Shown here piece by piece: positions 12,472 to 27,627 of a DNA stretch of 35,113 bases (positions are counted from its first letter, which is position 1; each line of letters opens with the position of its first letter). The notes below the pieces were generated by a model. The model was not told where the DNA came from, did no database searches, and was given only the letters and a program-made list of their open reading frames with translations. Source of the DNA: Polaromonas sp. YR568 (GTDB taxonomy: Bacteria; Pseudomonadota; Gammaproteobacteria; Burkholderiales; Burkholderiaceae_C); contig CAMCUN010000038.1 of NCBI GenBank assembly GCA_945878995.1, positions 1 to 35,113 of the forward strand. Reading direction: 5' to 3'. Position numbers and translations under genes: made by a program.

Positions 12472-13740
12472 TCACCTCTCCAACTCACCGGCCTTGGCCG
12501 CCACAAACTTGGCCCGGGGCCGAATCAGCTGGGGCGACAGGCGCTGCTCCAGCACATGGGCCACCCAGCCGGCCAGGCGGGCGAGCAAAAACAAGGCGGC
12601 GGCCGAACCTGGCGGGCAGTGCAGGGCGTGGCAGGTGGCGATCACAGCCAGCTCGTGGCGGGGGTAAAGAGCGTGGCGCTGCCCCTCGTCCACCAAGGCC
12701 AGCGCCTGCGCAGCCGCAGGCGGCAGGCCGGGCCGGCTGCGAAGGCGGGCCAGCAGCCAGGAGGCGCGGGGATCGCCCAAGGGGTAGAGCGGGTGTTCAA
12801 AGCCGGGCACCGCCTGGCCCGCAGCCACGCGCTGGGCCAGTTGGCTTTGTGCGCTGAGGCCTCCCTCGCCTGCGAGCAACATTTCTATGCGCTGGTAGCG
12901 GCGCGTCACCTCGGTGCCCGCGCTGGCCGCCAAGGCCGCCGCCAGACACGCATGCAAGGGGCTGGCACTTGATGCGGCAATGCGGGCGGCAAATGTGCCG
13001 GGCGAGAGTTCATGGTCGGCCAGCAGGACCAGGGTGGCGTTGAGCAGCGCCACATCGTCGGCGCAGCCTGGCCGGCCCAGGGCCTGCAGCGCCGCCAGGG
13101 CCACCGAGGCCCCGGGGGCAGGGCGCACAAAGCGCCCCGCTTGGCCCAGCACCCCCAAGCAGCCGGCCAGCGTGAGCACCAACTCGCGCGCGGCCTCCAG
13201 CGGGTGTCCGTGCATGAGCCGCGCAGCGGCCGAGCCCCGGCCCAGGCCCAGCTGCAGCACGGCCATGGCCAAGACCTCGGCCATTTGCGCTTGGGCCAGG
13301 GCGGGAGTGAGCTGGCCCAGCAAAGTGCCCAGGGCGGGGGGCAGCTCAGGCGCGCGCCAGACCACGGGCTCTTCGTGCCACAGCCCGCTCCACAGCAGCT
13401 CGGCGGTGTGCTCAAAAGAGGCGCCCTGCTCGGCCAGCTCCAGCGCCAGCCGCCCCCGGTAACTGGGGCCCCTGGGCGTGATCTCGGTGATGCTGGTGGG
13501 CACCATGGGGTGGCCCAGGTTGAGCGCCGAGGCGGCCACCGCCGCCTGGCCGCCTTGCACCTGGGCGCGCTGCAGCAGGCGGTCTAAGTCGGCGCGGGCA
13601 TACAGGCGCTCGCGCGCGCCGTCGGCTTGGACGCTGCGCACCAAGCCTCGGCTCACGTAGGCATACAGGGTTTGTCGCCTGACCTGCAAAAGCTCGGCGG
13701 CTTCGGCGGAGTTCAAAAAGTCTTTGGGGCGGCTCGTCAT
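12472..13740 (-). CDS. HTH-citrate synthase-like protein 1, probable metabolite-sensing regulator
   Basis: The protein has 422 residues. Residues about 8-58 are a MerR/excisionase-type helix-turn-helix (SAEAAELLQVRRQTLYAYVSRG). Residues about 85-412 are a citrate-synthase-like domain, with 'ADHELSPGTFAARIAAS' (His243), 'FEHPLYPLGDPRA' (His316, Arg325) and a C-terminal 'RLAGWVAHVLEQRL' then IRPR. Against E. coli GltA by eye, catalytic His264 (GPAHGG) is lost (Val278 or nearby), His305 is kept as His316 and catalytic Asp362 is Glu363, while the substrate-binding Arg positions are kept. It is annotated in databases as citrate synthase family, but loss of catalytic residues plus a DNA-binding domain suggests a ligand-responsive regulator. 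It is divergent from the Bug receptor gene and is a paralogue of the gene at 26362. Confidence 0.88.
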   Translation of the reverse strand: MTSRPKDFLNSAEAAELLQVRRQTLYAYVSRGLVRSVQADGARERLYARADLDRLLQRAQVQGGQAAVAASALNLGHPMVPTSITEITPRGPSYRGRLALELAEQGASFEHTAELLWSGLWHEEPVVWRAPELPPALGTLLGQLTPALAQAQMAEVLAMAVLQLGLGRGSAAARLMHGHPLEAARELVLTLAGCLGVLGQAGRFVRPAPGASVALAALQALGRPGCADDVALLNATLVLLADHELSPGTFAARIAASSASPLHACLAAALAASAGTEVTRRYQRIEMLLAGEGGLSAQSQLAQRVAAGQAVPGFEHPLYPLGDPRASWLLARLRSRPGLPPAAAQALALVDEGQRHALYPRHELAVIATCHALHCPPGSAAALFLLARLAGWVAHVLEQRLSPQLIRPRAKFVAAKAGELER

Positions 13741-13741
13741 G

Positions 13742-13768
13742 TTGATTGGTCAATCAAGATTGATCAAT
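13742..13768. promoter_or_regulatory. Overlapping palindromes, candidate operator of the HTH-citrate synthase-like regulator
   Basis: This short region between the divergent genes contains three nested symmetries: TTGATTG-N2-CAATCAA (13742-13757), CAATC-N2-GATTG (13751-13762) and ATTGATCAAT (13759-13768). The CAATC-N2-GATTG part recurs in the equivalent position next to the second regulator (26232-26243). The last palindrome covers the -35 of the rightward promoter, so a bound regulator could act on both genes. Confidence 0.6.
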
Positions 13769-13788
13769 TCTAGGGATCAACCTAGTAT
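13760..13788 (+). promoter_or_regulatory. Sigma-70 type promoter for the Bug receptor operon
   Basis: TTGATC at 13760-13765 and TAGTAT at 13783-13788 are separated by 17 bases, a good match to a sigma-70 promoter. Transcription would start near 13795, about 45 bases before the Bug receptor ATG, whose Shine-Dalgarno GGAGA is at 13829-13833. The -35 lies inside the palindromes described for the regulator. Confidence 0.55.
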
Positions 13789-13839
13789 TCGCCCCTTGTT
13801 TGCACCGCACAAGCTCAGACCCATCCCCGGAGACACTTC

Positions 13840-14835
13840 ATGAAATCCCAAGCCCAAGCCCTGATCAACCGCCGCACCTTGCTGCAAAGCGCAGCCCTGG
13901 CCGCCCTGCCTCTGGGCGCGGGCGCCCAGAGCGCCAACTTTCCGCAGCGGCCCGTGCGCATCGTGGTGCCCTACCCGCCAGGCGGCTCCAACGACGTGAT
14001 CGCCCGCTTGGTGGCGCAAAAGCTGCAGGAGCAGTGGTCGCAGCCGGTGGTGGTGGAAAACAAGCCAGGCGCAGCCGGTAACCTGGGCTCGGCCGAGGTG
14101 GTCAAGTCCGCGCCTGATGGCTACACCTTGCTGCTCAACAACATCAACATCACCTCCATGAACCCGGCGCTGATCGAGCGCATGCCTTTTGATGCCAGCA
14201 AGGACTTTGCCCACATCTCGCTGCTGGGCACCACCGCATTGGCCTTGGCCGTGCACCCCAGCGTGCCCGCGCAAAACGTGCAGGAGCTGGTCAAGCTGCT
14301 GCGCGAGCGGCCAGGCCGCTTGAGTTACGCCTCCAGCGGCAACGGCAGCCCGCAGCACATGGCCATGGAGATGTTCAAGGCCATGACCAAAACCAGCATC
14401 GTGCACATTCCTTACCGGGGCGCGGCACCCGCCATTTCTGACGTGGTGGGCGGGCAAATTGAGATGACGATTGGCGTGGTCAACCAAGTCATTCCGCATG
14501 TGCGAGCTGGCCGCCTGCGTGCGCTGGCCGTGACCAGCCGCAAAAAACTCGCCAACCTGCCCGAGGTGCCCACGCTGGACGAATCGGCCGCCCCCGGCTA
14601 CGAGTGCGAAATCTGGCTGGGCCTGTCGGCCCCCGCAGGCACGCCCGCACCCGTGGTGGACGCCATCAACCAGGCCGTGCGCCGCGTCATGGCCTTGCCC
14701 GACGTGGCCCAGCGCCTGAACGGCCAAGGCATTGAGGTGCTGACCAGCTCGCCCGAGCAAATGCGCCAGCGCGCGGCCGACGACCTCAAGCGCTGGACCG
14801 AAGTCATTCGCACCGCTGGCATCAAGGCCGAATAA
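13840..14835 (+). CDS. Bug-family (TctC) periplasmic solute receptor of a tripartite tricarboxylate transporter
   Basis: This is a 331-residue extracytoplasmic receptor. The N-terminal signal has a twin-arginine-like 'NRRTLLQ' (residues 10-16), a hydrophobic stretch and a cleavage region GAGAQSANFP. Bug hallmarks follow: 'RPVRIVVPYPPGGSNDVIARL', 'VVENKPGAAGNLG' and 'HIPYRGAAPAISDVVGGQI'. These receptors bind carboxylates, often without a dedicated TctAB permease next door, and none is here. It heads the rightward block and lies 39 bases before the TPP enzyme gene. GGAGA six bases before the ATG supports the start. The ligand is probably an organic acid degraded by the neighbouring enzymes; its identity is not given by sequence. 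Confidence 0.93.
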   Translation: MKSQAQALINRRTLLQSAALAALPLGAGAQSANFPQRPVRIVVPYPPGGSNDVIARLVAQKLQEQWSQPVVVENKPGAAGNLGSAEVVKSAPDGYTLLLNNINITSMNPALIERMPFDASKDFAHISLLGTTALALAVHPSVPAQNVQELVKLLRERPGRLSYASSGNGSPQHMAMEMFKAMTKTSIVHIPYRGAAPAISDVVGGQIEMTIGVVNQVIPHVRAGRLRALAVTSRKKLANLPEVPTLDESAAPGYECEIWLGLSAPAGTPAPVVDAINQAVRRVMALPDVAQRLNGQGIEVLTSSPEQMRQRAADDLKRWTEVIRTAGIKAE

Positions 14836-14874
14836 CACGCTCTCCTGCCCCCTTCAACCCCACGGATTTTTGCC

Positions 14875-16668
14875 ATGACTGCTCCACTGCCGCCGACTGC
14901 GCGGCGCGATCACCCCTTGCCCAGCGACCCCAGCGAGGCCTGCTGGGGCAGCGACGCCATTGCCGACATGCTGCGCGCCTTGCGCGTGCCCTATGTGCTG
15001 CTCAATCCGGGAGCGAGTTTCAGGGGACTGCACGACAGCTTGGTCAACCATCTGGGCAACGCCGAGCCGCAAATGCTGCTGGTGCTGCACGAAGAGCATG
15101 CCGTGGCCATTGCGCACGGTTTTGCCAAGGTCGGCGGCCAGCCGCTGGCGGCCATCTTGCACAGCAACGTGGGCCTGATGCACGGCTCCATGGCGATTTT
15201 TGACGCCTGGTGCGACCGCGTGCCCGTGCTGGTGCTGGGCGCCACCGGGCCGGTGGACGCGGCCCGCCGCCGCCCCTGGATTGATTGGCTGCACACAGCG
15301 GCCGACCAAGCGGCGCTGGTGCGCTCCTTCATCAAGTGGGACGCCCAGCCCGCCTCTGTGCCTGCCGCCCAAGAGGCCTTGCTGCGCGCCTGGCGCATTG
15401 CAGACACCGCACCGCGCGGTCCCACCTATGTGTGCTTTGACGCGGCGCTCCAAGAGGCCAAGCTGGCGCAGCGCCCGGCCTTGCCCGACGTGGCGCGCTA
15501 TGCGGCCCCCGCCTCGCCAGAGCCTGCCGCGCAGGACCTGGCGCGTGCGCTGGCGTGGCTGCAAGGCGCCCAGTCGCCAGTGATTTTGGCCGGGCGGGTC
15601 TCGCGCAGCGAGGCCGGCTGGCAAGCCCGCGTGGCATTGGCCGAGCGCCTGGGCGCGCGCGTCATCACCGACCTCAAGCTGGGTGCGGCCTTTCCCACCC
15701 GCCACCCGCTGCACACCGGCCCAGCCGGCATGTTTTTAACGCCCGAGGTGGCCCAGGTGCTGCGCCAGGCCGACGTGGTGCTCAGCCTGGACTGGCTGGA
15801 CCTGGGCGGCACGCTCAAGCAAGCCTGGGGGCAAGAGGCCGTGGGCAGCCGCATCATTCAAGTCTCGGTGGACCACCACATTCACAACGGCTGGAGCATG
15901 GACCACCAAAGCCTGCCGCCGGCCGACTGCTTCATGGCCTGCGAGCCCGAGCCCGCCGTGAACGCCATGCTGGCCGCCTTGGGCGCAAGCTCCATAGAAC
16001 AGACCTGGCCTGACACAGCCCCCCCAGCCGCGCGCCTGGTGGACCCCGACGCGCCAATGCAGGTGGCCGACGTGGCCGCCTTGGTGCGCGAGGCCACGCA
16101 GGACTCGCCAGTGAGCCTGCTGCGCCTGCCCCTGAGCTGGGCCGGCGACTTTTGGGACTTTGCACACCCGCTGGACTTTTTGGGCTACGACGGCGGCGGC
16201 GGCATTGGCTCAGGCCCGGGCATGGTGGTGGGCAGCGCGCTGGCCTTGCAAGGCAGCGAGCGGCTGCCGCTGGCCCTCATTGGCGACGGCGACTTTCTCA
16301 TGGGCGTCACGGCCTTTTGGACGGCGGCCAACGCCCGCATCCCGCTGCTGTGCCTGGTGGCCAACAACCGCTCGTTTTTCAACGACGAGCTGCACCAAGA
16401 GCGCGTGGCCCGCGAACGCGGCCGCCCTGTTGAAAACCGCTGGATAGGCCAGCGCATTGACGACCCCGCACCCGACCTCGCCATGATGGCGCGCGCCCAG
16501 GGGCTGACTGCCTTTGGCCCGGTGCGCAACGCCACCCAAATGCGCGAGGTTTTGCCGCAAGCCCTGGCCGCTGTGCGGCGCGGTGAATCGGTGGTGGTCG
16601 ATGTGCTGGTCAAGCCCGGCTACTCGCCGTCCATGGCGCAGGGCATGACGCGCACGCAAGAGGGCTGA
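14875..16668 (+). CDS. Thiamine-pyrophosphate-dependent enzyme, acetolactate synthase/2-oxoacid decarboxylase-like
   Basis: The protein has 597 residues with the three-domain layout of the POX/ALS family. The N-terminal PYR domain has 'LLNPGASFRGLHD' and 'LHEEHAVAIAHGFAKVGG', in which Glu73 is the expected cofactor-activating glutamate. The middle domain (about 190-330) resembles the FAD/ADP-binding fold, but FAD use cannot be told. The C-terminal PP domain has the TPP/Mg motif GDGDFLMGV (Gly470-Asp471-Gly472-Asp473) closing with 'VANNRSFFNDELH'. It could decarboxylate or ligate a 2-oxoacid, or cleave an acyl-CoA. Linked to a Bug receptor and a regulator with an oxaloacetate-binding-like domain, it probably acts on the acid taken up. 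The substrate is unknown. Confidence 0.88.
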   Translation: MTAPLPPTARRDHPLPSDPSEACWGSDAIADMLRALRVPYVLLNPGASFRGLHDSLVNHLGNAEPQMLLVLHEEHAVAIAHGFAKVGGQPLAAILHSNVGLMHGSMAIFDAWCDRVPVLVLGATGPVDAARRRPWIDWLHTAADQAALVRSFIKWDAQPASVPAAQEALLRAWRIADTAPRGPTYVCFDAALQEAKLAQRPALPDVARYAAPASPEPAAQDLARALAWLQGAQSPVILAGRVSRSEAGWQARVALAERLGARVITDLKLGAAFPTRHPLHTGPAGMFLTPEVAQVLRQADVVLSLDWLDLGGTLKQAWGQEAVGSRIIQVSVDHHIHNGWSMDHQSLPPADCFMACEPEPAVNAMLAALGASSIEQTWPDTAPPAARLVDPDAPMQVADVAALVREATQDSPVSLLRLPLSWAGDFWDFAHPLDFLGYDGGGGIGSGPGMVVGSALALQGSERLPLALIGDGDFLMGVTAFWTAANARIPLLCLVANNRSFFNDELHQERVARERGRPVENRWIGQRIDDPAPDLAMMARAQGLTAFGPVRNATQMREVLPQALAAVRRGESVVVDVLVKPGYSPSMAQGMTRTQEG

Positions 16669-16693
16669 GGCTTCCAAGCCAGGCGGCCAAAAA

Positions 16694-16716
16694 AGGGATT
16701 GCATAGCGCAATCCCT
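16694..16716. terminator. Perfect hairpin at the end of the Bug-TPP unit
   Basis: AGGGATTGC and its exact complement flank a 5-base loop. On the plus strand it is followed by only a short GATTTA, but read on the minus strand it is followed by six T. It lies 25 bases after the TPP enzyme stop and before the promoter region of the carboxylase genes, so it probably separates the two rightward units, perhaps incompletely. Confidence 0.55.
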
Positions 16717-16758
16717 GATTTACTTCGACGTCTAAGTTAAAGCAAAATCAGCGACATA

Positions 16759-16781
16759 TTGCACAGCACAGAGCTGTGCAA
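16759..16781. promoter_or_regulatory. Perfect inverted repeat before the carboxylase operon, candidate operator
   Basis: TTGCACAG and CTGTGCAA (8-base arms) flank a 7-base spacer, 33 bases before the carboxyltransferase start. Size and symmetry fit a site for a dimeric regulator such as a GntR or LysR protein; it could also form an RNA hairpin in the leader. It differs from the CAATC-N2-GATTG palindrome, so a second regulator outside the window may act here. Confidence 0.5.
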
Positions 16782-16813
16782 AGTGCCGCGCCAGACCTAT
16801 ATCGGGAGATCCC

Positions 16814-18268
16814 ATGAGTGAGATTCGGTTCGTGGACACGACAGTGCGCGATGGCTCGCAAAGCTTGTGGGCCATGGGCATGCGCACCGACATGATTCTG
16901 CCCATTGCGCAGCGGCTTGACGAGGCGGGCTTTGACGCCATTGAGATCATGGCCACCAGCTTTGAAAAAAAGCTAATCCGCGATTTGCAGGAAGACCCCT
17001 GGGAACGGCTGATCGAGGTGCGCAAGCGCGTGCAGTTGACGCCGCTGCGCATGATACGGGGCCGGCAACTGGCGGCCTTTCAGATCACGCCCGACGTGAT
17101 CGAAGACCTTTGGTACGAGCGCATGGCCGCCATGGGCATTGCTCAGATCCGCCTGTCTGACTCATCGAACACCGCCGTGGGTTGGAAGAAAAACATGGTC
17201 CGCGCCCGCAAGGTGGGGATCGATGTGGTCATCAACCTGATTTTTTCGCAGTCCCAAAAGCACACCGACGCGTATTACGCCAAGCGTGCGCGAGAGGCGG
17301 CCAGGCTCAAGCCGCACCGCATCTGCCTGAAGGACCCGGGTGCGCTGCTCACGCCTGAGCGTGTGCGAACGCTGGCGCCTATCGTGCTGGCCAATGCAGG
17401 CGGCATACCCGTGGAATTCCACACCCACTGCAACACCGGACTGGGCTTGCTCAGCACGCTGGAGGCCATTCGAGCCGGCATTCATATTGTCAATACGGCG
17501 ATTCCCCCCTTGGCCGAATCCTCATCGAACCCATCGCTGTTCGACGTGGTGCACAACGCCCGCGTGATGGGCCATACCCCCCTGATCAATGAAGCGCTGC
17601 TGCGGCCCGTGCAAGCGCATTTCCTGGAGATCGCACAGCGCGAAGGCCTGCCTGTTGGCGTGCCGCTGGCCTACGATGCCCACCATTACCAGCATCAGGT
17701 GCCAGGCGGGATGATCTCCAATTTGCGCTTTCAGTTGGGTGCTGCGGGCCTGGCGGACAAACTGCCTGCCGTGCTGGAAGAAATTGCACGGGTGCGCGCC
17801 GATTTCGGCTTTCCCATCATGGTCACGCCCTACTCCCAGTTTGTGGGCGCGCAGGCGGTGCTCAACGTGATCACGGGCCAGCGCTACAAGCAAGTTTCTG
17901 ATGAAATCATTCATTACGCCTCAGGGGGCTGGGGCGAGGAAGAAAGCCAATCCATCAACCCCGAGGTGCGCGAGCAGATTCTCCAGCGTCCACGCGCCAA
18001 AGCCCTGGCAGCCCAACACTATGAGCAGCCCACCTTGGCGCAGGTGCGCCAGCAATACGGCGGCTTTGGCGTGTCAGATGACGAGTTGCTGCTGAACTTT
18101 TTCACCAGCGCCCAACAGGTGGCCCAAATGCGCCAGGCCAGACAAATGGGGCGAGATGGACAAGACCCGCGTGGGCTGCTCGCCTTGATCGCCAAGCTGG
18201 GCGCGAGCCGCAGCGTCAAGTTTCTTGAACTCAAACGCGACGGCAAAACCCTTCGCATGCAGGCCTGA
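16814..18268 (+). CDS. Carboxyltransferase subunit of a biotin-dependent carboxylase (pyruvate carboxylase B/oxaloacetate decarboxylase alpha-like)
   Basis: This is a 484-residue protein with the HMGL-type TIM barrel and the PYC/OADA C-terminal region. It keeps the equivalents of the Rhizobium etli pyruvate carboxylase metal site: Asp13 (DTTVRDGSQSL), Lys173 (CLKDPGALL, the carbamylated Lys) and His203/His205 (HTHCNTG). The pyruvate-binding Arg is present as Arg82 (MIRGRQ). It departs from the standard form at RDGSQSL (normally RDAHQSL) and HTHCNTG (normally HTHDT), so the acceptor may not be pyruvate. The C-terminal 'PGGMISNLRFQL' and 'VTPYSQFVGAQAV' match the family. GGAG five bases upstream supports the start. 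Biotin carrier and biotin carboxylase follow on the same strand, so this is a three-gene enzyme. Confidence 0.88.
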   Translation: MSEIRFVDTTVRDGSQSLWAMGMRTDMILPIAQRLDEAGFDAIEIMATSFEKKLIRDLQEDPWERLIEVRKRVQLTPLRMIRGRQLAAFQITPDVIEDLWYERMAAMGIAQIRLSDSSNTAVGWKKNMVRARKVGIDVVINLIFSQSQKHTDAYYAKRAREAARLKPHRICLKDPGALLTPERVRTLAPIVLANAGGIPVEFHTHCNTGLGLLSTLEAIRAGIHIVNTAIPPLAESSSNPSLFDVVHNARVMGHTPLINEALLRPVQAHFLEIAQREGLPVGVPLAYDAHHYQHQVPGGMISNLRFQLGAAGLADKLPAVLEEIARVRADFGFPIMVTPYSQFVGAQAVLNVITGQRYKQVSDEIIHYASGGWGEEESQSINPEVREQILQRPRAKALAAQHYEQPTLAQVRQQYGGFGVSDDELLLNFFTSAQQVAQMRQARQMGRDGQDPRGLLALIAKLGASRSVKFLELKRDGKTLRMQA

Positions 18269-18303
18269 ATCGCCGCCCGCCAAGCCCCGACCCTGGAGAC
18301 ACC

Positions 18304-18837
18304 ATGACACAAGCACTGGACTTACTCACCGACGCCGAGGTGCGGCAGATCATCAGCCTGATCGACAGCCTGGACCGTTCCCATTTCGATCACCTGCAGA
18401 TCGATGTGGGCACTTTCAAGCTCACCTTGGGCAAGGGACAGTGGCCGGCCGACCCCACCTTGGCACCTTCTCAAAGCAGCAGCTTGCCCGCGCCTGCGCC
18501 CATGGCCTCCCACGCAGCGCCACCTTCATCTGCAGCCGCGCCGCAAGCTGCCACGGCCAGCGCCGCAAAATCCCCCGCCAAGCCGCTGCCACAAGCCGAC
18601 TGGCTGCCGGTGGCGGCCACCACCATGGGGCGCTTTTACAGCCGCCCAGATCCGAACAGCGCCCCTTTTGTGCAGCTCGGTGATAGGGTGCAGACCGAGG
18701 ACACGGTGTGCCTGATCGAGGTCATGAAGCTGTTCAACGCCATCCCTGCGGGCGTCACTGGCACGGTGGTGCAAGTGTGCGTGCAAGACACCGACGTGGT
18801 CGAGTACGGCCAAGTGCTCTTTTACGTTCAGGCCTAA
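18304..18837 (+). CDS. Biotin carboxyl carrier protein
   Basis: This 177-residue protein starts with an AccB-like helical part (DAEVRQIISLIDSLDRSHFDH), has a flexible Ala/Pro-rich linker (residues about 52-97) and ends in a biotinyl domain. The biotin attachment site is EVMKLFN with Lys142; the usual motif is EAMKM, and the EVMKLFN form is common in alternative AccB-type carriers. It shuttles the carboxyl group between the biotin carboxylase (next gene) and the carboxyltransferase (previous gene). GGAG before the ATG supports the start. The gene is 35 bases after the carboxyltransferase gene. Confidence 0.92.
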   Translation: MTQALDLLTDAEVRQIISLIDSLDRSHFDHLQIDVGTFKLTLGKGQWPADPTLAPSQSSSLPAPAPMASHAAPPSSAAAPQAATASAAKSPAKPLPQADWLPVAATTMGRFYSRPDPNSAPFVQLGDRVQTEDTVCLIEVMKLFNAIPAGVTGTVVQVCVQDTDVVEYGQVLFYVQA

Positions 18838-18851
18838 GGACCGAGTCAGGC

Positions 18852-20210: not shown

Positions 20211-20240
20211 GCGGGCAGCTAAGCGGGCAGCTGAGCCCGC
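20205..20240. repeat. Three tandem 12-base units at the convergent junction
   Basis: AGCTGAGCGGGC, AGCTAAGCGGGC and AGCTGAGCCCGC follow each other across the stop codon of the biotin carboxylase gene. The last two can pair (GCGGGC / GCCCGC) as a GC-rich hairpin, and further CCCCGG/GGGG pairing follows up to 20275. It probably serves as a shared terminator between the convergent blocks, although no T-run is present. Confidence 0.5.
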
Positions 20241-20275
20241 ACCCCGGCCGAAGGGGCTGCGGGGCTGCAGCCGGG

Positions 20276-21778: not shown

Positions 21779-22410
21779 GGGGGGAGAAGTTGTTCAATGA
21801 ATCGGCAGGTCTCGGACAGACCCACCACGTCGGCATACTTGGCCTGCAGGTCAAACAGGCTTTGCTCATGGGCGTTTTGGGAGCGGTCGCCCACGCATTC
21901 GCGCACGACCATGGCGCGCAGACCCGTCTGCAAAGCGTCCACCGCAGTGGCACGCACGCAACCGCTGGTGGTGCAACCGGCCAGCAGCACGGTGTCTATG
22001 CCTTGAGAAAAAAGGCGGGTGGTCAGGTCGGTGCCGAAAAAGCAAGAAGCGTATTTTTTAAGCAACCAAGCCTCACCCGGCATGCGATGCAGCCGGGGGT
22101 CCAGTTCCACTTCTGGCGTGCCCGCGCGCAAAGACATCACACCACGCTGCTTCAAGGCCCAGATGCCGGCATCCTTGAAGTCAGCGTCCTCATAGCTGAC
22201 GCTGGAAAAGAAAATCGGCAGGCCTCGCGCGCGTGCACTGGCCAGCAACACCTGGGTGGCCGAGATTTGGGCGTCAAGGTTGGCGCCCAACATGGCCTCT
22301 GGGTTGGTAAAAGCCTGGATCATGTCGATCACCAAGACCGCCGGACGCTGGCCGAACCCTATGGTTTGGCCAAAACCACGCTGGGCGAAAAAATCTTTTT
22401 CAGCGCTCAC
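21775..22410 (-). CDS. Isochorismatase-family cysteine hydrolase (N-carbamoylsarcosine amidase-like)
   Basis: The protein has 211 residues and starts with GTG. The catalytic triad is visible: Asp29 (VLVIDMIQAF), Lys118 or Lys119 (LLKKYASCFFGT) and Cys151 (AGCTTSGCVRATAVDA). This closely follows the pattern of N-carbamoylsarcosine amidohydrolase and maleamate amidohydrolase rather than true isochorismatases, so a C-N bond of an amide or carbamoyl compound is the likely target. It lies 11 bases after the TRAP DctM gene and overlaps the aldehyde dehydrogenase gene. The substrate is not certain; nicotinate or creatinine-like routes are possibilities only. Confidence 0.88.
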   Translation of the reverse strand: MSAEKDFFAQRGFGQTIGFGQRPAVLVIDMIQAFTNPEAMLGANLDAQISATQVLLASARARGLPIFFSSVSYEDADFKDAGIWALKQRGVMSLRAGTPEVELDPRLHRMPGEAWLLKKYASCFFGTDLTTRLFSQGIDTVLLAGCTTSGCVRATAVDALQTGLRAMVVRECVGDRSQNAHEQSLFDLQAKYADVVGLSETCRFIEQLLPP

Positions 22411-22421
22411 GGTGACTGTGA

Positions 22422-23738
22422 CTAGCCCATCACACTGGGCAACCAGGTGGCAATGGGCTTGACAAAAAAGACCAACACCAACATCAAGAGGCTGATCACC
22501 ACAAAAGGATAGGCCGCAGAGAAAACCTCACGCATGGTGATCTGAGGCGGGGCCACGCTTTTCATGGTGAACAGCAGCAAACCAAAAGGCGGCGTCATCA
22601 GACCGAGTTGCATGGCAATCAAAAAGAGCACGCCAAACCAGATCTGATCAATCCCCGCGCTGATGATCAAGGGCATGAAAAACGGCAGCGTCAGCAGCAT
22701 CATGCTGACCTGATCGACAAAGCAGCCCAGCACCAACAAGATAAGGATCATGGCCAAAATCAACATGTTCGGGCTCAAATCAAGTGCGCCCACCGCGCTG
22801 AGAAAACCATTGGTGGCACCCGAGAACCCCAAGAGCTGGGAAAAAGCCGTGGCCCCTACGATGATGAACAACACCATGCACGACACCTGCACCGTGCCTT
22901 TGAGCGACTGCACCAAGCCCTGCCAGGTCAAGGCCCGGTAGCACGCTGCCAACAAAATGGTGGCAGCAGCGCCCAAAGCCGCCGCCTCGGTCGGGGTAGA
23001 AATGCCAGAGGACATGGCACCAATGACCACGCCAAAAATCGACAGCAAAGGCAGCACATAAAGCACAAACAATCGCCAGCGTTGCCAGCCGGTGTAGCGG
23101 GTGCCTTCATCATCGACAGGGACGCTGCCCGGCACCAAAACAGCCTTGGCAATGATGTAGGCCACAAAGGTCACCGCCAACAAAAGACCAGGCACGATGC
23201 CGGCAAACAAAAGCTTGGTGATAGAAATGTTGGCCAAGCTGCCAAACAAGACAATCAGCGCGGAAGGCGGGATCAACATGTCCACCCCCCCAATGGCAAT
23301 GATGGGCCCCATGGCCAGAGAAGGGTGGTATTTTTTCTCCAACATGATGGGGGTCATAGAGCGACCCAACATGGCGGTGGTGGCGATGGTGGAGCCAGAG
23401 ATGGCCGAAAAAGCCGTGCCCGCCACCACAGAAACCACCGGCAGCCGCGCAGGTACGCGGTGAATCAGCCGGTCAAAGGCATCAATCACCTTCAAGGCCA
23501 AACCGGTCTGGAACAGCACCTCACCCATCAAAATAAACAAGGGGATGGGCGTGAGCGAGAAGGTGATGACCGATGCAATGGAATTGCGTGCCAACTGATC
23601 GACGCCGGCCAAACCACCCATGAAGACAAAGGCCGCCACGACGTTGGTGGCTAAAAAAGCCAATGCCACCGGAAGACCGATGAACATCAGAAAAATCACG
23701 CCTGCAAGCAATGCGGTCAGGCTAAGGATCCAGTCCAC
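22422..23738 (-). CDS. dctM: TRAP transporter large permease (DctM)
   Basis: This is a 438-residue protein with about 12 hydrophobic segments and the DctM landmarks 'FLMFIGLPVALAF', 'TPIPLFILMGEVLF', 'GTAFSAISGSTIATTAMLG' and 'PPSALIVLFGSLANISI'. It forms the sodium-driven transport channel with DctQ. It starts with GTG, with GGGAGG six bases upstream. It comes after DctP and DctQ in the operon and before the cysteine hydrolase. The substrate depends on the DctP receptor. Confidence 0.95.
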   Translation of the reverse strand: MDWILSLTALLAGVIFLMFIGLPVALAFLATNVVAAFVFMGGLAGVDQLARNSIASVITFSLTPIPLFILMGEVLFQTGLALKVIDAFDRLIHRVPARLPVVSVVAGTAFSAISGSTIATTAMLGRSMTPIMLEKKYHPSLAMGPIIAIGGVDMLIPPSALIVLFGSLANISITKLLFAGIVPGLLLAVTFVAYIIAKAVLVPGSVPVDDEGTRYTGWQRWRLFVLYVLPLLSIFGVVIGAMSSGISTPTEAAALGAAATILLAACYRALTWQGLVQSLKGTVQVSCMVLFIIVGATAFSQLLGFSGATNGFLSAVGALDLSPNMLILAMILILLVLGCFVDQVSMMLLTLPFFMPLIISAGIDQIWFGVLFLIAMQLGLMTPPFGLLLFTMKSVAPPQITMREVFSAAYPFVVISLLMLVLVFFVKPIATWLPSVMG

Positions 23739-23770
23739 TGTGAGCCTCCCGTTTTATTCAACACAAGTCT

Positions 23771-24319
23771 TCAGGCCACAGAAGTGGCTTCGGAGCGGAC
23801 TGCCTTGGCCCCGCTGAGCAAGCGCCACAGCCTGAGCACACATTCGATGGTCAGCACACCAAAGAGCATGCTCGCCGGCGTGATCAGCCACCATTCAGGG
23901 AAAACAAAAATCTTGAACACCAAGGAGCCCTGGGCGGCACTGGCCAAGGCTGCCTTGGCGCAGGCCCAAGTCAAAGCGGCGCAGGCCAAAATCGCCACCA
24001 CATCGGCCAACGCCTCCAAAGCCCAGGCCAAGTGCGCAGGCAGCATCTTGAGCACAATGTCCATGCGCACATGCGCGCCTTGGCGCAGCAGCCAGGGGGC
24101 AGCCAGAAAGGTGGACAAATAAAGCGTGTACTCGGCCACCTCATTGGCCCAAGCCAAGTTGCCCAACTTGGCGTTGCGCACCAACACGTCTGCGCAAATC
24201 ACGGCCACCATCAGAGCCACCAGGGCACAAGCGAGCAGCGCCAGCGCACTGAGCAGGCGCGCCCAATGTGCATCCAGGCGAGTGGACAGCTTCATGCGCG
24301 AGGGCTCTGACTCAGACAT
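23771..24319 (-). CDS. dctQ: TRAP transporter small permease (DctQ)
   Basis: This 182-residue membrane protein has four hydrophobic segments, as is usual for DctQ, with the family pattern 'VAVICADVLVRNAKLGNLAWANEVAEYTLYL' around the second segment. It bridges DctM and the periplasmic receptor. It begins five bases after the DctP stop and ends about 30 bases before DctM. The N-terminus is charged and cytoplasmic (SESEPSRMKLSTR). Confidence 0.92.
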   Translation of the reverse strand: MSESEPSRMKLSTRLDAHWARLLSALALLACALVALMVAVICADVLVRNAKLGNLAWANEVAEYTLYLSTFLAAPWLLRQGAHVRMDIVLKMLPAHLAWALEALADVVAILACAALTWACAKAALASAAQGSLVFKIFVFPEWWLITPASMLFGVLTIECVLRLWRLLSGAKAVRSEATSVA

Positions 24320-24324
24320 CAGGC

Positions 24325-25299
24325 TCAGCGTGTGAGCAGCTGGCGCAACTTGGTGCCGTGCTCAGGACTGCGTTTGTTGATGCTCTCCCAAATGGTGTCG
24401 GTAGCGCGCTTGGTGTAGGCGGCCGTTTCTGCAGGCGAGAACACGATGGGCTGAATACCGGCAGCCGTCTGGCGTTTCTTTTCCTCTTCCCACTTCTTGG
24501 GGTTGTCCAAGTTGAGGTTTTCCATCCAGATGGCCGCGCTGGTGAGCACCGCGCGCTGCTTTTCGTTCAATCGTTTCCAGGTGTTGAGGTTCATCAAAAC
24601 CCCCACCTCGGTGTTGTAAAAGCCTGGCTCGACGCGGTATTTGGTGTGCTCTTGCAAGCTCAGGTCAAAGATCCCAGAGACCGGCCAGCCGTAGCCATCA
24701 ATCACACCCCGCTCCAATGCGGTGTAAGTCTCACCCGGTGCAATGGTCAGCACATTGCCGCCCATGCTGGTAAAAAATTCTCTGTAAATGGGGATGCCAC
24801 GCAACCGCATTCCGGCCAAATCAGGCTTGCTGATTTGCTTTTTCATAAAGAGGTGGTAGGGCATGTTGTCAATGGCCCGGCCCAGGTAGTGGGCGTTGAG
24901 CTTGTCACCCCAGAGCTTGTTGACATAGTCATAAGCGCCATTTGAGCGCCACTCTTGCACTGGAATGGTGCTGACTGACAGGGCATCGGACTCGGGCAGC
25001 AAGTTGGTGTAGAAATTGCCAGTCACATTGGCCATGTCAACCACACCGCTCTTGACGGCATTGCCCACCTCAAACGGAGGCATGACCTTGGCGCCACCGC
25101 CCAGGTAATTGATTTGGATAGATCCTTTGCCTTCAGCATTGACTTTTTGAACAAATTTCTCAAAGTTCTGTGAGAAAAAATTGCCCTCAGGCCAAGCGCT
25201 CACCGCCTTGATGGTGATCTCCTGCGCAAGCACTGGGGAGGCGCCCAGCGCCATCGCGCAGGCGGCCGTGAAAAGGCCTAGTCTTTTAATCAATTTCAT
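24325..25299 (-). CDS. dctP: TRAP transporter periplasmic substrate-binding protein (DctP)
   Basis: The receptor is 324 residues from the ATG at 25299, chosen because AGGAGA lies 7 bases before it and a Sec signal starts at once (MKLIKRLGLFTAACAMALG, cleavage after VLA). DctP features follow: 'VSAWPEGNFFSQNFEKFVQ', 'LRGIPIYREFFTSMGGNVL' and 'ETYTALERGVIDGYGWPVSG'; the Arg in 'GMRLRGIP' is the usual carboxylate anchor. The ligand is therefore probably a carboxylic acid. The gene is 57 bases after the SDR gene and heads the transporter trio. Confidence 0.94.
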   Translation of the reverse strand: MKLIKRLGLFTAACAMALGASPVLAQEITIKAVSAWPEGNFFSQNFEKFVQKVNAEGKGSIQINYLGGGAKVMPPFEVGNAVKSGVVDMANVTGNFYTNLLPESDALSVSTIPVQEWRSNGAYDYVNKLWGDKLNAHYLGRAIDNMPYHLFMKKQISKPDLAGMRLRGIPIYREFFTSMGGNVLTIAPGETYTALERGVIDGYGWPVSGIFDLSLQEHTKYRVEPGFYNTEVGVLMNLNTWKRLNEKQRAVLTSAAIWMENLNLDNPKKWEEEKKRQTAAGIQPIVFSPAETAAYTKRATDTIWESINKRSPEHGTKLRQLLTR

Positions 25300-25356
25300 G
25301 TCAAGTCTCCTGGTGGGTGGGGGTGATTCAAAGCTCAACTGAGTCTCAATGCGTGG

Positions 25357-26130
25357 TTACACAAAACAGTAACCTCCGTCTACAACGAGGGATTGGCCCG
25401 TCACAAAAGCACTGTCGTCCGAGGCCAAAAAGCTGACCACGCCTTCCAGGTCTTGGGGACCTTCTTCGCGCTGAATGCAACGCATGGCGATTTGCTGGCG
25501 CTTTTGCTCAGGCGTCACCGTCTCACGGGGAACCTCGGTGTCCGTGGCACCGGGCAGCAAGGCATTGACAGTGATGCCGTCGGGGCCGAGTTCGCGCGCC
25601 AAAGAGCGGGTCATGCCCACCACCGCTGCTTTGGAGGTGGTGTAGTGCAGGTAATTGGGGCGACCCATCAAAAATGCGGCCGACGACACGTTGATCACCC
25701 GCCCCCATTTGTGGCGGCGCATCAGCGGCACCAAAGCCCGGGTCATCAAAAAAGTACCGGTGATGTTGACATTGAGCACACGCACCCATTCGTCCACCGG
25801 AATCTGCTCAAAAGGACGCATGGTGATGGTCGAAAAAATCGCAGCGTTGTTGACCAACACATCGCAGCGCCCAAACTCTTGCTCAATGGCCGCAGCGGCT
25901 TTCTCAACGCTGCTGACATCTGACACATCAACCGTCAAGGGCAGGCAAGTGGCACCCAAGGCTCTCACCTCCGTAGCCACCCGTTCGAGTGCTTGGGTTT
26001 GCAAATCAAGCACCACCACCCGGTGACCCTCTTTGGCGAACCGCATGGCATAAGCACGCCCCAGGCCTTGCGCAGCACCTGTGATCACAACCACCCGGCC
26101 TGCCGAGTTCCGCATTGTTGGATTTGTCAA
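25357..26130 (-). CDS. Short-chain dehydrogenase/reductase (SDR)
   Basis: This 257-residue classical SDR has a cofactor motif VITGAAQGLGRAY (residues 15-27), NNAA (94-97) and the catalytic Ser150, Tyr163, Lys167 (NVSSAA then YTTSK). The Asp after the second strand (LDLQT) suggests NAD(H) preference. I keep the TTG at 26130 because GAGGG sits 7 bases upstream; an ATG at 26115 with poorer spacing is the alternative and shortens it by five residues. It is the first gene of the leftward operon and divergent from the second HTH-citrate synthase-like gene. It probably oxidises a hydroxyl of the imported compound. Confidence 0.9.
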   Translation of the reverse strand: MTNPTMRNSAGRVVVITGAAQGLGRAYAMRFAKEGHRVVVLDLQTQALERVATEVRALGATCLPLTVDVSDVSSVEKAAAAIEQEFGRCDVLVNNAAIFSTITMRPFEQIPVDEWVRVLNVNITGTFLMTRALVPLMRRHKWGRVINVSSAAFLMGRPNYLHYTTSKAAVVGMTRSLARELGPDGITVNALLPGATDTEVPRETVTPEQKRQQIAMRCIQREEGPQDLEGVVSFLASDDSAFVTGQSLVVDGGYCFV

Positions 26131-26231
26131 AAAAATGCCCTCTTGTGAAGACCTGCTTTGTCAGGCGTGGATTTTCTTAGTTGACGAACTATATTTAATG
26201 GGGCTAGTCTAAGAACAAGTCGATCCTGTAT

Positions 26232-26243
26232 CAATCTCGATTG
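26232..26243. promoter_or_regulatory. Palindrome shared with the other regulator gene, candidate operator
   Basis: CAATC-TC-GATTG lies about midway in the 231-base gap between the SDR gene and the second HTH-citrate synthase-like gene. The same CAATC-N2-GATTG is at 13751-13762, next to the paralogous regulator. A TATAGT at 26193-26188 on the minus strand, 38 bases further left, could be the -10 of the SDR operon; its -35 is weak. Confidence 0.55.
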
Positions 26244-26361
26244 CATCATCGATCAACGAAAACCCCTAGGAGCATCCCAAGCTGTTGACTCGCCTGCCAA
26301 GACGCGCCAGGCATGGATTGCTTGGTTTGTCGGACATGGCCGCACCGATACTTGTATTCAT

Positions 26362-27627
26362 ATGATGAAACCAGACCCCGACCTGGACGCCAGTCAGCTG
26401 CTGACTGCCCAAGAAGCCAGCGCCATGCTGGGCATCAAACCAGCCACGCTTTACACCTATGTCAGCCGCGGCTTGCTGCACCCTTTGCGGCAGTCCAATC
26501 GCAAAGCCAACCGCTACCAGCTCGATGAGATTCAGAGCCTGAAAGTCCGCAGCAGCGTCCGGCAAGGCAGCGGCCCGGTGGCAGCGGCGGCGATGCGCTG
26601 GGGTCAGCCGGTGATAGAGACAGCCATCACAGAGATAGAGGCAGGCGGCCCACGTTACCGCGGCCATTTGGCGACAGAACTTGCCAGGCATCCGGGCCGG
26701 TTTGAAAATGTGGCCGAGCTGTTATGGAGCGGCTTGCTCACCGATGGACCTCAAACTTGGCCGGTGGAGCACATGCAAGTCGATGTGGCTCGCGCTTTGG
26801 AAGCCGTGCTGCAGCAAGGCCGAACCAGACCGCGCATGATGCGTGTCTTTTCCATCGTCGCCACAGCCTTGGGCGGCGGCACCTTGGCGCAAGAACTTCG
26901 CATGGGATCGACAGAGCATTTGTCGCGGCAAATGCTGTTTGCCTTTGCAGGGGCTTGCGGCTTGCTCGGGCCGCGGGGCGTGTATGCACAGGCCCAAGGC
27001 GAGCAGCCACTGGCCGTGCATGTGATGCAGGCCATGGAGGCGGCACCGACCCCAGCTTTGGAGCAAGCCATCAACACAGCCCTGATTCTTGGCGCAGACC
27101 ACGAACTGTCATCCAGCACTTTTTCAGCGCGAATAGCAGCCTCCACAGGCGCCACCTTGCATGCTTGTGTGGTGGCGGCCCAAGCCACGCACCAAGGCGC
27201 CGCGTTGGCTGGAGGGGCCGATGCCGCCGAAGACTTGATAGACACCCTGCAATCGAAAGCGGACTTGAAGGGCAGACTGGCCGAGGCCGAACTCAAAGGG
27301 CAGCGGCTCCTTGGTTTTGGACTGCCCATTTACCCGAAAGGCGATCCGCGCGCGGCGATGATGATCAAACTGGCGCAAACGGCCCCGGGGTCGGCACAAA
27401 CGGACTTGGCGCTGCGCTTCGTGGAGGGTGTGACTGAGCGGGTGGGCCTGCATCCCAACATTGAGATGGGCTTGGTGCTGCTATGCAAAGCTTGGCGCCT
27501 GCCGCCCCGCAGCGCCTGTGCGCTGTGGGGCATTGGCCGCACCGCAGGCTGGATTGCGCACGCCTTGGAGCAACGACTGGCCGGCTTCACCATACGGCCG
27601 CGGGGTTTGTATCAAGGCAAGCGCTGA
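26362..27627 (+). CDS. HTH-citrate synthase-like protein 2, probable metabolite-sensing regulator
   Basis: The protein has 421 residues and the same plan as the gene at 12472: helix-turn-helix at about 13-60 (TAQEASAMLGIKPATLYTYVSRG) and a citrate-synthase-like domain at about 87-417. It keeps 'ADHELSSSTFSARIAAS' (His247), DPRA (Arg330), GRTAGWIAH (Arg393) and IRPRGLY. Compared by eye with E. coli GltA, all three catalytic residues are changed: His264 to Ala283 (AGGAD for HGGAN), His305 to Leu321 (GFGLPIYPKGDPR) and Asp362 to Glu368 (LHPNIE). It is therefore unlikely to make citrate. It is divergent from the SDR-TRAP operon and probably regulates it. The start codon is ATG followed by a second ATG; either is possible. 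Confidence 0.88.
   Translation: MMKPDPDLDASQLLTAQEASAMLGIKPATLYTYVSRGLLHPLRQSNRKANRYQLDEIQSLKVRSSVRQGSGPVAAAAMRWGQPVIETAITEIEAGGPRYRGHLATELARHPGRFENVAELLWSGLLTDGPQTWPVEHMQVDVARALEAVLQQGRTRPRMMRVFSIVATALGGGTLAQELRMGSTEHLSRQMLFAFAGACGLLGPRGVYAQAQGEQPLAVHVMQAMEAAPTPALEQAINTALILGADHELSSSTFSARIAASTGATLHACVVAAQATHQGAALAGGADAAEDLIDTLQSKADLKGRLAEAELKGQRLLGFGLPIYPKGDPRAAMMIKLAQTAPGSAQTDLALRFVEGVTERVGLHPNIEMGLVLLCKAWRLPPRSACALWGIGRTAGWIAHALEQRLAGFTIRPRGLYQGKR

Follow-up and report, generated by a model that had tools for sequence, protein, structure and literature searches.

The mandelate pathway consists of mandelate dehydrogenase, benzoylformate decarboxylase and benzaldehyde dehydrogenase. PatE, encoded beside a phthalate ABC transporter in Rhodococcus jostii RHA1, is presumably a monoalkyl phthalate hydrolase, and we take the catalytic His/His/Asp of citrate synthase to be H264, H305 and D362 of the E. 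coli enzyme. HpeCBA and XccBCA are described as three-subunit biotin-dependent aryl-ketone carboxylases (PMC9618137, PMC8461187).

Features reminiscent of all these systems are found in the window analysed here, a stretch of 35,113 nucleotides (35 kb) from Polaromonas sp. YR568, in which the locus of interest occupies positions 12472-27627 (Table 1) and apparently continues to a phthalate-dioxygenase-type gene pair further right (32653-34967). Our main reading, to which we assign a probability of roughly 0.6, is that the two blocks of this locus form one catabolic regulon channelling phthalate-related compounds into phthalate breakdown, both regulators acting at a common palindrome. A role in converting phthalate-related compounds to phthalate is likely because both promoters carry this palindrome and relatives of most of these enzyme types sit together in phthalate-degradation islands of other bacteria. 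The observations behind the main reading comprise gene content, the common palindrome, a decayed catalytic triad with kept arginines, a motif upstream of most family members, the joint presence or absence of the thiamine diphosphate (TPP) enzyme and carboxyltransferase in seven genomes, and the linkage with phthalate genes, in other bacteria, that the TPP, aldehyde dehydrogenase (ALDH), hydrolase and carboxylase types show. The compound class can be named (phthalate and its precursors), and individual substrates, above all that of the carboxylase, are proposed conditionally.

Table 1. Features of the locus and of the gene pair to its right (window positions).
Feature	Position	Strand	Basis or comment
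csL: HTH_17/MerR-like domain + citrate-synthase domain	12472..13740	-	Pfam HTH_17, Citrate_synt above cut-off; would regulate the Bug-TPP block
Predicted operator ATCAATCTTGATTG, between csL and Bug	13751..13764	-	Exact palindrome
Bug/TctC tripartite-tricarboxylate receptor	13840..14835	+	Pfam TctC, E 7e-74
TPP enzyme, benzoylformate-decarboxylase-like; predicted 2-carboxybenzoylformate decarboxylase	14875..16668	+	Solved relatives, Rieske linkage
Hairpin between TPP and carboxyltransferase genes	16694..16716	+	-15 kcal/mol, z -2.6; terminator-like scan
Carboxyltransferase subunit, biotin-dependent carboxylase (pyruvate carboxylase B/OadA/transcarboxylase 5S superfamily)	16814..18268	+	Pfam PYC_OADA, HMGL-like
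Biotin carboxyl carrier protein (BCCP)	18304..18837	+	Biotin_lipoyl; E-V-M-K-L motif
Biotin carboxylase	18852..20210	+	NCBIfam PRK08591 above cut-off; Biotin_carb_N/CPSase/Biotin_carb_C
ALDH; predicted 2-formylbenzoate dehydrogenase	20276..21778	-	Pfam Aldedh; phdK homology
Isochorismatase-type cysteine hydrolase; predicted phthalate monoester or phthalamate hydrolase	21775..22410	-	
TRAP large permease DctM	22422..23738	-	Order conserved in L028, L146, L206, L208
TRAP small permease DctQ	23771..24319	-	Conserved gene order
TRAP solute-binding protein DctP	24325..25338	-	
Short-chain dehydrogenase (SDR)	25357..26130	-	Pfam adh_short_C2
Predicted operator ATCAATCTCGATTG, between SDR and csR	26230..26243	+	Palindrome arms exact
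csR: HTH_17 + citrate-synthase domain	26362..27627	+	Pfam; would regulate the SDR-TRAP-hydrolase-ALDH block
Rieske oxygenase, phthalate 4,5-dioxygenase type (LigXa_C)	32653..33972	+	PDB 7fjl/7v25/7v28, E 7e-228
4,5-dihydroxyphthalate-decarboxylase-like protein	33978..34967	+	Homology to annotated decarboxylases

The genes named in a preliminary description of the locus are all real and on the strands claimed (ORF list and Pfam), except that 12 were counted where there are 13. Pfam scans of ten proteins gave the domain assignments, the TRAP M, Q and P genes were assigned from position and homology, and the biotin carboxylase start was set at MPVTRV inside the ORF at 18708. Each regulator gene and the first gene of its block do run divergently; the mirror symmetry also described is present locally but not conserved, since in two sister genomes (G442 and G459) the csL/Bug-TPP block is found on a different contig, and the carboxylase genes, collinear with the right-hand run, form its tail.

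Both csL and csR, which are 37% identical, exceed the gathering scores of PF12728 and PF00285 and hence belong to an HTH-citrate-synthase (HTH-CS) family. In its own assembly csR has four matches, namely itself, csL, C90 (31%) and C10 (25%), the last two aligning as ordinary citrate synthase and citryl-CoA-lyase-like protein. When aligned to the organism's own GltA, the catalytic triad reads V/H/E in csL, which retains one residue of three (His), and L/L/E in csR, which retains none; both proteins keep the three arginines that should contact the ligand. These losses are fixed within the respective clades (9/9 for csL, support 100/99; 4/4 for csR, support 100/98), and a TPP homologue was found in the fetched stretch for seven of the eight other csL-clade members (L145 is without). 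Proteins combining citrate-synthase and DNA-binding domains occur in 18 of 120 family genomes (E 1e-30). Fully catalytic-looking relatives persist in the HTH-CS family, and at least some of its proteins are annotated as citrate synthase in records. That these proteins remain enzymes (citrate synthase or citryl-CoA lyase), the small HTH domain having another role, would fit the complete triad of 12 of the 32 family members and the one His left in csL; it is nevertheless very improbable, given the two (csL) and three (csR) triad residues that are gone clade-wide, the divergent gene placement and the conserved promoter palindrome. From these sequence features, csL and csR are predicted to be enzyme-derived regulators of the phthalate-feeding regulon that sense a carboxylic acid.

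The palindrome in question, ATCAATCTYGATTG, is present at both divergent promoters, where it makes the top two operator-like sites in 35 kb; its exact form has two matches in 35 kb versus 0.05 expected, and none of 100 shuffles had two. It was recovered by a de novo motif search of 32 upstream regions with a log-likelihood of 152.7 (60 starts), compared with 24.9-36.3 for ten base-shuffled control sets (30 starts each). When the window and its relatives were excluded from matrix training, the sites at 13751 and 26230 still rank first and second in the window. Across the family (relatives left out), 20 of 32 HTH-CS genes have the best site of the whole locus within the 400 bp before them, versus 0.69 expected, and 23 do so when 400 bp downstream are also counted; a top-ranked site directly upstream is missing for 12. 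The two proteins therefore have, as expected of one-component regulators, a conserved operator-like motif at their own or the adjacent promoter. In G442 and G459, the top site is again at the now unlinked csL/Bug promoter, here with the window sites among the training sites of the matrix. Genome-wide, 19 sites were found with two mismatches allowed, versus two for the control, the uniqueness of the exact match being partly circular because the pattern was derived from those two sites.

Since the motif occurs across the family, its sharing need not imply co-regulation, and the locus could house two unrelated adjacent pathways, Bug-TPP for one substrate and SDR-TRAP-hydrolase-ALDH-carboxylase for another, under regulators that are mere paralogues with a family-typical operator. 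The two contigs of G442 and G459 would suit this, as would the fact that either block is also found without the other: the right block stands without a TPP gene in G435, G063 and G168, and G099, G114, G150, G162 and G175 have Bug-TPP-ALDH and neither carboxyltransferase nor a second such ALDH. We consider it fairly unlikely, however, because left blocks elsewhere (the same five genomes and G056) include their own ALDH, which in the window, G440, G442 and G459 sits in the right block, and exactly one such ALDH (E<=1e-170) was matched in each of 12 genomes searched (own not among them). Moreover, in all seven right-block genomes TPP and carboxyltransferase genes are either both present (four) or both absent (three), and one island of a Sulfitobacter faviae plasmid unites TPP, ALDH, hydrolase, DctPQM and carboxylase genes with phthalate genes, though without SDR and Bug. 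Together with the common palindrome, these last two findings support the earlier proposal of one pathway for a carboxylated compound. That proposal was to be given up if the blocks occurred independently and never near HTH-CS genes: they do occur independently, yet an HTH-CS gene adjoins the right-hand block in five of seven loci.

The link to phthalate starts with the gene pair at the right. The Rieske protein matches 7fjl, which we take to be phthalate dioxygenase, over its full length (residues 1-438) and is 57% identical to the depositor-named pht3; by homology it is the oxygenase component of the phthalate 4,5-dioxygenase pathway. Its neighbour, a candidate decarboxylase of that pathway by homology, is 79% identical to an annotated 4,5-dihydroxyphthalate decarboxylase of CJ2 and 61% to pht5 of pLA6_006, and has zero NCBIfam model matches; proteins of its type are labelled substrate-binding protein in many records. 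Relatives of the Rieske gene lie directly behind Bug-TPP in G442 and G459, and behind Bug-TPP-ALDH in G114. At E 1e-100 for both, 23 of 39 plasmid records with a TPP homologue carry such a Rieske gene (21 within 20 kb), which overall occurs in 46 of 72,556 records; it is absent from the other 16, including all seven of Sinorhizobium, and on Cupriavidus necator p1 no Rieske or HTH-CS gene lies within 12 kb of Bug-TPP-ALDH. The best solved relatives of the TPP enzyme are benzoylformate decarboxylases (E 3e-26), and it is still predicted from sequence to work like one, despite scoring 143.8 against the NCBIfam model NF005485 (cut-off 493). The PDB matches of the Bug receptor include Bug27 and a terephthalate-binding protein, and the hairpin behind the TPP gene is possibly the end of the Bug-TPP transcript.

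In the right block, ALDH is 56% identical to the depositor-named phdK 2-formylbenzoate dehydrogenase of pLA6_006, and SDR has as best and second PDB matches 8cxa (3-oxoacyl-ACP reductase) and 2ew8 ((S)-1-phenylethanol dehydrogenase). The cysteine hydrolase has the fold and catalytic cysteine of the maleamate amidase/N-carbamoylsarcosine amidohydrolase subfamily, its best solved match being named after the latter and its fold neighbours being maleamate amidases. One might hence think of a non-aromatic carbamoyl or amide compound, with an N-carbamoyl amidohydrolase and a TPP enzyme acting on an aliphatic 2-oxo acid, especially since an Asp/Glu/hydantoin racemase gene at 28542-29234 (a racemase-family gene is annotated on pACP4.2 too) fits hydantoin-like substrates. 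This is quite improbable, because that racemase was matched only in its own genome and the near-identical sister G440 (among loci compared), the TPP enzyme is tied to the phthalate-type Rieske on plasmids, and three (Marinibacterium, Martelella, Limimaricola) of the four plasmid hydrolases at least 58% identical adjoin both. A 62% relative lies inside an annotated phthalate island, and relatives of 53-55% lie within actinobacterial operons that we take to be phthalate operons. Against a phthalate role, the hydrolase type is widespread (280 plasmid records at E 1e-25, with the contexts of four read), the best plasmid match (Salipiger abyssi) adjoins TRAP and arylmalonate decarboxylase genes rather than phthalate genes, and island DctP proteins are just 28-31% identical to that of the window. 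The gene context favours a phthalate monoester or monoamide as substrate; of the "possibly amide-containing" compound suggested earlier, the class is amended to phthalate-related, and the hydrolase need not be an amidase.

The carboxylase shares with aryl-ketone carboxylases its three separate subunits. The solved relatives of its carboxyltransferase, 5ks8, 2nx9 and 5S (pyruvate carboxylase beta, OadA and transcarboxylase 5S), would suit an ordinary pyruvate carboxylase or oxaloacetate decarboxylase refilling central metabolism. This is improbable in view of (i) their E-x-W-G-G-x-T-x-D stretch, which reads E-I-M-A-T-S-F-E-K here, (ii) the sub-cut-off scores for all 24 NCBIfam models matched (323.1 vs 402 for PRK09282), (iii) a close copy (E 1e-100) in just three of 399 drawn family genomes, own included, and (iv) relatives (38-39%) on two plasmids carrying comparable clusters, one of them in a kinase/BCCP/BC/CT/phosphatase cluster that is hpe-type-like.

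On the one-regulon reading, csL and csR would be dimeric one-component regulators that bind the palindrome, their grip on DNA changing when the former active site is occupied by a carboxylate or acyl-CoA. The Bug and TRAP systems would import aromatic acids, the TPP enzyme would decarboxylate 2-carboxybenzoylformate to 2-formylbenzoate, which ALDH would oxidise to phthalate, SDR would convert an alcohol to an aldehyde or ketone, and the hydrolase would release phthalate from a monoester or monoamide. The Rieske enzyme and decarboxylase would then turn phthalate into protocatechuate. The weakest step is that of the carboxylase, which may act on an aryl ketone side chain, e.g. of 2-acetylbenzoate.

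A wider and more tentative reading, at slightly less than even odds, is that HTH-CS proteins are a new class of bacterial transcription regulators reading the palindrome ATCAATMTTGAT, an old enzyme of central metabolism stepwise turned sensor, and that the pair here runs an unrecognised funnel from ortho-substituted benzoates to phthalate. The members of that funnel would be TPP decarboxylase, aldehyde dehydrogenase, phthalate-type cysteine hydrolase and biotin-dependent aryl-ketone carboxylase. If HTH-CS proteins were named as regulators and their operator defined, citrate synthase misannotations could be corrected and targets predicted from sequence, and the gradation from intact to empty active sites in one family would open the enzyme-to-sensor transition to direct tests. 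Phthalate and plasticiser breakdown would gain precursor routes through this enzyme set, possibly with biotin-dependent carboxylation within an aromatic pathway.

As for known systems, csL and csR share fold family and ligand-binding arginines with citrate synthase type II and 2-methylcitrate synthase, and differ by the lost triad, the added HTH domain and best scores against curated NCBIfam citrate synthase models (89.7 and 128.8 bits) that are below cut-offs (421.3 and 332). The mandelate pathway likewise has a TPP 2-oxo-acid decarboxylase followed by an ALDH, and an alpha-hydroxy acid oxidase gene is present on two plasmid islands with this TPP type, but the TPP score is below cut-off and the neighbours here point to an ortho-carboxylated ring. 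For PatE, a 53% identical RHA1 protein, whose gene immediately follows the four genes of an ABC transporter and precedes a ring-hydroxylating dioxygenase operon, is a candidate at most, whereas the window hydrolase belongs to a TRAP operon. HpeCBA and XccBCA (PMC9618137, PMC8461187) resemble the window carboxylase in subunit make-up, with BCCP, carboxyltransferase and biotin carboxylase on separate chains and a place in an aromatic pathway; they differ in their co-located kinase and phosphatase, and no kinase, CoA synthetase or phosphatase of that kind was recognised by Pfam among 26 window proteins. The alphaproteobacterial islands use MarR/IclR genes, and regulator pairing looks lineage-specific because no HTH-CS gene was annotated or matched in those read. 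Compared with the phthalate 4,5-dioxygenase pathway (pht3/ophA1/pht4/pht5, Marinibacterium anthonyi pLA6_006), no reductase or dihydrodiol dehydrogenase was recognised in the scanned set of window proteins, the last gene ending at 34967, and no HTH-CS regulator or carboxylase is annotated in the two stretches read of pLA6_006. The window nevertheless shares with that pathway Rieske and decarboxylase-like genes, and with the pLA6_006 island also DctPQM and the enzymes that are labelled there mdlC (TPP enzyme), phdK (ALDH) and nicF (hydrolase).

The genes that the preliminary description had placed between two paralogous regulators are all present where it had them, in the order csL (-); Bug, TPP, CT, BCCP and BC (+); ALDH, hydrolase, DctM, DctQ, DctP and SDR (-); csR (+). 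Here, csL and csR are the left and right HTH-citrate synthase (HTH-CS) proteins (37% identity to each other), Bug is a TctC-type receptor, TPP a TPP enzyme, CT, BCCP and BC the three biotin-carboxylase-system subunits, ALDH an aldehyde dehydrogenase, DctPQM a TRAP transporter, SDR a short-chain dehydrogenase, and the hydrolase an isochorismatase-type cysteine hydrolase. The feature is real and its nature had been well guessed. It is now possible to assign the pathway to phthalate, while the greater novelty lies in the HTH-CS regulator family together with its operator. Coordinates of the features discussed are collected in the table.

Features of the window that bear on the regulators, their operator and the phthalate reading
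Feature	Position	Strand	Remark
BenE-type benzoate transporter gene	6208-7440		left flank; fits an aromatic-acid neighbourhood
csL	12472-13740	-	HTH_17 and citrate synthase domains
Predicted operator site, csL/Bug promoter	13751
Predicted operator site, SDR/csR promoter	26230
csR	26362-27627	+	HTH_17 and citrate synthase domains
Third-best operator-like site, CGGTCAAACTTGATAC	27657-27672		just behind csR, where a glutamine-amidotransferase gene has its 3' end; no obvious promoter role
Gene group lying between csR and Rieske	28542-32115		Asp/Glu/hydantoin racemase, Lrp-type regulator, GlcD-like FAD oxidase, flavin-reductase-like gene
Rieske oxygenase	32653-33972		full-length match to 7fjl/7v25/7v28, E 7e-228
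4,5-dihydroxyphthalate-decarboxylase-like protein	33978-34967		79% to an annotated 4,5-dihydroxyphthalate decarboxylase

Other genomes of the family bear on whether the two blocks form a unit. HTH-CS genes are found in a minority of them, that is, 18 of 120 with csR as the query (E 1e-30) and 21 of 399 with csL (E 1e-40; own genome counted). In the surroundings of these genes, a left module (HTH-CS with Bug-TPP-ALDH) was read in genomes G099, G114, G150, G162, G175 and G056, an association with HTH-CS that arises partly by selection, since the left loci were collected via the HTH-CS gene or handles picked for it. A right module, in which csR diverges from SDR-DctPQM-hydrolase-ALDH, is found in seven genomes. 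It adjoins csR in the window, G440, G442, G459 and G168, while the G435 contig ends near the SDR gene and no HTH-CS gene was found next door in the stretch read of G063. The two blocks are separable modules. In G442 (locus L208), SDR-DctP-DctQ-DctM-hydrolase-ALDH-CT-BCCP-BC form a single run on a single strand, which G459 (L209) matches as far as its contig end, and csL/Bug-TPP lie on other contigs in both (L216, L217), without ALDH. The carboxylase is part of the right module. Because it is collinear with that module and csL/Bug-TPP are unlinked in these two genomes, the mirror symmetry initially described is only local. The window layout would have arisen from the joining of two loci, the carboxylase genes ending up on the left strand. 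A -15 kcal/mol hairpin sits between TPP and CT. The same layout is seen, in pieces (L206, L218, L219), in G440, mostly at 94-98% identity to the window, with lower values for DctQ and the hydrolase (88%) and BCCP (84%). Loci on the same contig (L028 and L209 and, judged from length and content, L027 and L219, L055 and part of L148, and L029 and L107) were never counted twice.

The proposal that both blocks serve one pathway is supported by co-occurrence, and also qualified by it. Of the seven right-module genomes, four (own, G440, G442 and G459) have TPP as well as CT and the other three (G435, G063 and G168) have neither at E 1e-60, which, in genomes that are few and related, is support rather than proof. 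Against it stand the separability of the modules and TPP without CT in five genomes (G099, G114, G150, G162 and G175); G382 has CT relatives without TPP. At E 1e-170, the 12 genomes searched have one ALDH of the window's type each, within the left module in the same five genomes, within the right module in G440, G442, G459, G063, G168 and G435, and outside both in G382, where operator-like sites lie ~200 bp upstream of ALDH, between it and a Rieske gene of the phthalate-dioxygenase type. Most simply, the two modules would yield one and the same aldehyde. The count of ALDH at CT loci (0/80) is an underestimate, the L028 gene being masked by a wrong ORF.

The regulators themselves look like former enzymes. 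In an alignment with the citrate synthase of the same genome, the catalytic H/H/D reads V/H/E in csL and L/L/E in csR, losses that are fixed within their clades (9/9 and 4/4, respectively), and both keep the ADH histidine and three arginines at the oxaloacetate-binding positions (residue roles as in the E. coli enzyme). The complete triad is kept in 12 of 32 HTH-CS family members, a census from which an antisense ORF that had entered the alignment (L170, 9198-11234) was excluded. Loss of catalysis with a kept ligand pocket is the expected look of an enzyme turned sensor, and csL and csR are predicted to bind a ligand and DNA. There are four csR matches in the assembly: csR, csL and two weaker ones, by alignment an ordinary citrate synthase and a protein resembling citryl-CoA lyase. 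No description of citrate-synthase-domain regulators was found in the literature searched, which consisted of titles and abstract openings, with few subscription papers and mostly generic-word matches.

Both divergent promoters of the window share CAATCNNGATTG, the only two exact hits of which in the window lie there (0.05 expected). A palindrome, ATCAATATTGAT, was found de novo in the 330-bp regions preceding 32 HTH-CS genes, with a log-likelihood of 152.7 vs 24.9-36.3 in 10 base-shuffled controls run with half as many starts. When the matrix was trained only on sites scoring >15, excluding each locus and its close relatives (groups assigned by hand from the HTH-CS tree), the best site of the whole locus fell in the 400 bp preceding the HTH-CS gene in 20/32 loci vs 0.69 expected, and in 23/32 when the 400 bp downstream of that gene were added, the location of the Bug promoter in L142, L143 and L144. 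With relatives excluded from training, the csL/Bug and SDR/csR promoters of the window rank first and second in 35 kb. The csL/Bug promoter of G442 and G459, although unlinked there, again has the top site, and so has their csR/SDR promoter, using a matrix to which the window and L028 sites had contributed; this full matrix also served for G382 and the plasmid records. Across the 4.1-Mb assembly, exact ATCAATCTYGATTG occurs only at the two window promoters, a uniqueness that is partly circular because the pattern was taken from those sites, and near-matches number one with one mismatch and 19 with two mismatches vs 2 for the reversed control. The single one-mismatch match is ATCAAGCTTGATTG (contig C46, 24137-24150; L174). 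Elsewhere, intact-triad HTH-CS genes that carry the palindrome upstream diverge from genes for CaiB-type CoA transferases (L157, L158, L160, L161 and L162), and others adjoin 2-hydroxyacid dehydrogenase (L163, L165) or TonB receptor (L166) genes.

Gene neighbourhood links the modules to phthalate. The structure 7fjl, which the Rieske protein of the window matches, is the phthalate dioxygenase of Comamonas testosteroni. Lignin O-demethylation (LigXa), suggested by the Pfam name LigXa_C, was dropped in view of this full-length match and of the adjoining decarboxylase-like gene. Rieske relatives directly follow TPP in G442 (86%) and G459 (85%), follow TPP-ALDH in G114 (76%), and share the fetched stretch with the left module in G099 and G162 (73%). 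Among 72,556 plasmid records (E 1e-100 each), 39 have TPP, 46 the Rieske gene and 23 both, with no more than 20 kb between the two genes in 21; the records are not independent (eight are Phaeobacter), and a hand count per genus gives 13/21. Rieske genes at this threshold are missing from 16 of the 39 TPP records, including all seven from Sinorhizobium, and Bug-TPP-ALDH stands alone on Cupriavidus necator p1, which counts against the linkage.

Annotated islands also point to phthalate. Marinibacterium anthonyi pLA6_006 carries, with other genes interspersed, DctPQM, phdK (2-formylbenzoate dehydrogenase), pht3, ophA1, pht4, pht5, a TPP gene named mdlC and a hydrolase gene named nicF (hydrolase 62% and ALDH 56% to the window). 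Acidovorax carolinensis pACP4.2 has Bug-TPP-ALDH, a phthalate set, an annotated citrate/2-methylcitrate synthase matching the window HTH-CS proteins and a second such stretch (53% to csR) that the annotation splits into two short genes. The 28-kb island of Sulfitobacter faviae OXR-9 combines CT-BC-BCCP (48, 60 and 46%), DctPQM (DctP 31%, DctM 39%), hydrolase (48%), ALDH (57%), TPP (55%) and Rieske (57%) genes with CoA transferase, citryl-CoA lyase, phthalate reductase and dehydrogenase types, decarboxylase and pca genes; SDR and Bug were not found in it. The alphaproteobacterial islands read have no HTH-CS gene, their regulators being MarR, IclR or other. A nadC-type quinolinate phosphoribosyltransferase gene recurs within or beside phthalate gene sets (L229, L230, L231 and L232), perhaps with phthalate as a quinolinate mimic.

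The amide or carbamoyl substrate favoured initially is no longer the first choice because close hydrolase relatives adjoin TPP and phthalate-type genes. Four plasmid hydrolases reach >=58%, three of which have TPP and Rieske genes next to them; the best match, in Salipiger abyssi, has TRAP and arylmalonate decarboxylase genes as neighbours, which counts against the phthalate linkage. Relatives on Arthrobacter keyseri pRE1 (55%) and Rhodococcus jostii pRHL2 (53%) follow an ABC transporter and precede a ring-hydroxylating dioxygenase operon, which we take to be the phthalate operon in each case. PatE is a monoalkyl phthalate hydrolase. Judging by protein family and neighbourhood, from which all steps derive, TPP would convert 2-carboxybenzoylformate to 2-formylbenzoate, ALDH would oxidise this to phthalate, the hydrolase would release phthalate from a monoester or monoamide, SDR would oxidise an upstream alcohol, and the Rieske enzyme and decarboxylase would lead onward to protocatechuate. 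The ligand of 4mnc/4mni, benzoylformate, plays no part in this argument. A role as 2-hydroxyacid dehydrogenase is possible for the GlcD-like FAD oxidase.

The carboxylase is harder to place. CT keeps D13, K173, H203 and H205, invariant among 22 aligned sequences and presumably serving as metal ligands and carbamyl-lysine, and is without the E-x-W-G-G-x-T-x-D stretch, which the three nearest proteins of solved structure share. Our guess, held with low confidence, is a predicted aryl-ketone carboxylase acting on something like 2-acetylbenzoate. Two Candidatus Binatia genomes (L056, L060) have three adjacent, differing CT copies (46-50% to the window CT). On another contig of the genome (L170, contig C10, 6644-11219), Bug, citryl-CoA-lyase-like and CaiB-type CoA transferase genes form a single run, which may complete the carboxylase branch; such a lyase/transferase pair accompanies the carboxylase in S. 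faviae and 6/80 CT loci. One plasmid CT relative adjoins a beta-keto-acid cleavage-type gene (annotated 3-keto-5-aminohexanoate cleavage protein). The acetovanillone pathway was also set aside as a reading. In Rhodococcus, its carboxylase acts with a kinase and a phosphatase (PMC9618137, PMC8461187). These partners were not recognised in the window, and a regular-expression search for PEP-utiliser-like kinase motifs gave no match in the ORFs of 80 CT loci. Another plasmid CT relative lies in a kinase-BCCP-BC-CT-phosphatase cluster that includes an annotated pyruvate, phosphate dikinase and resembles the hpe type.
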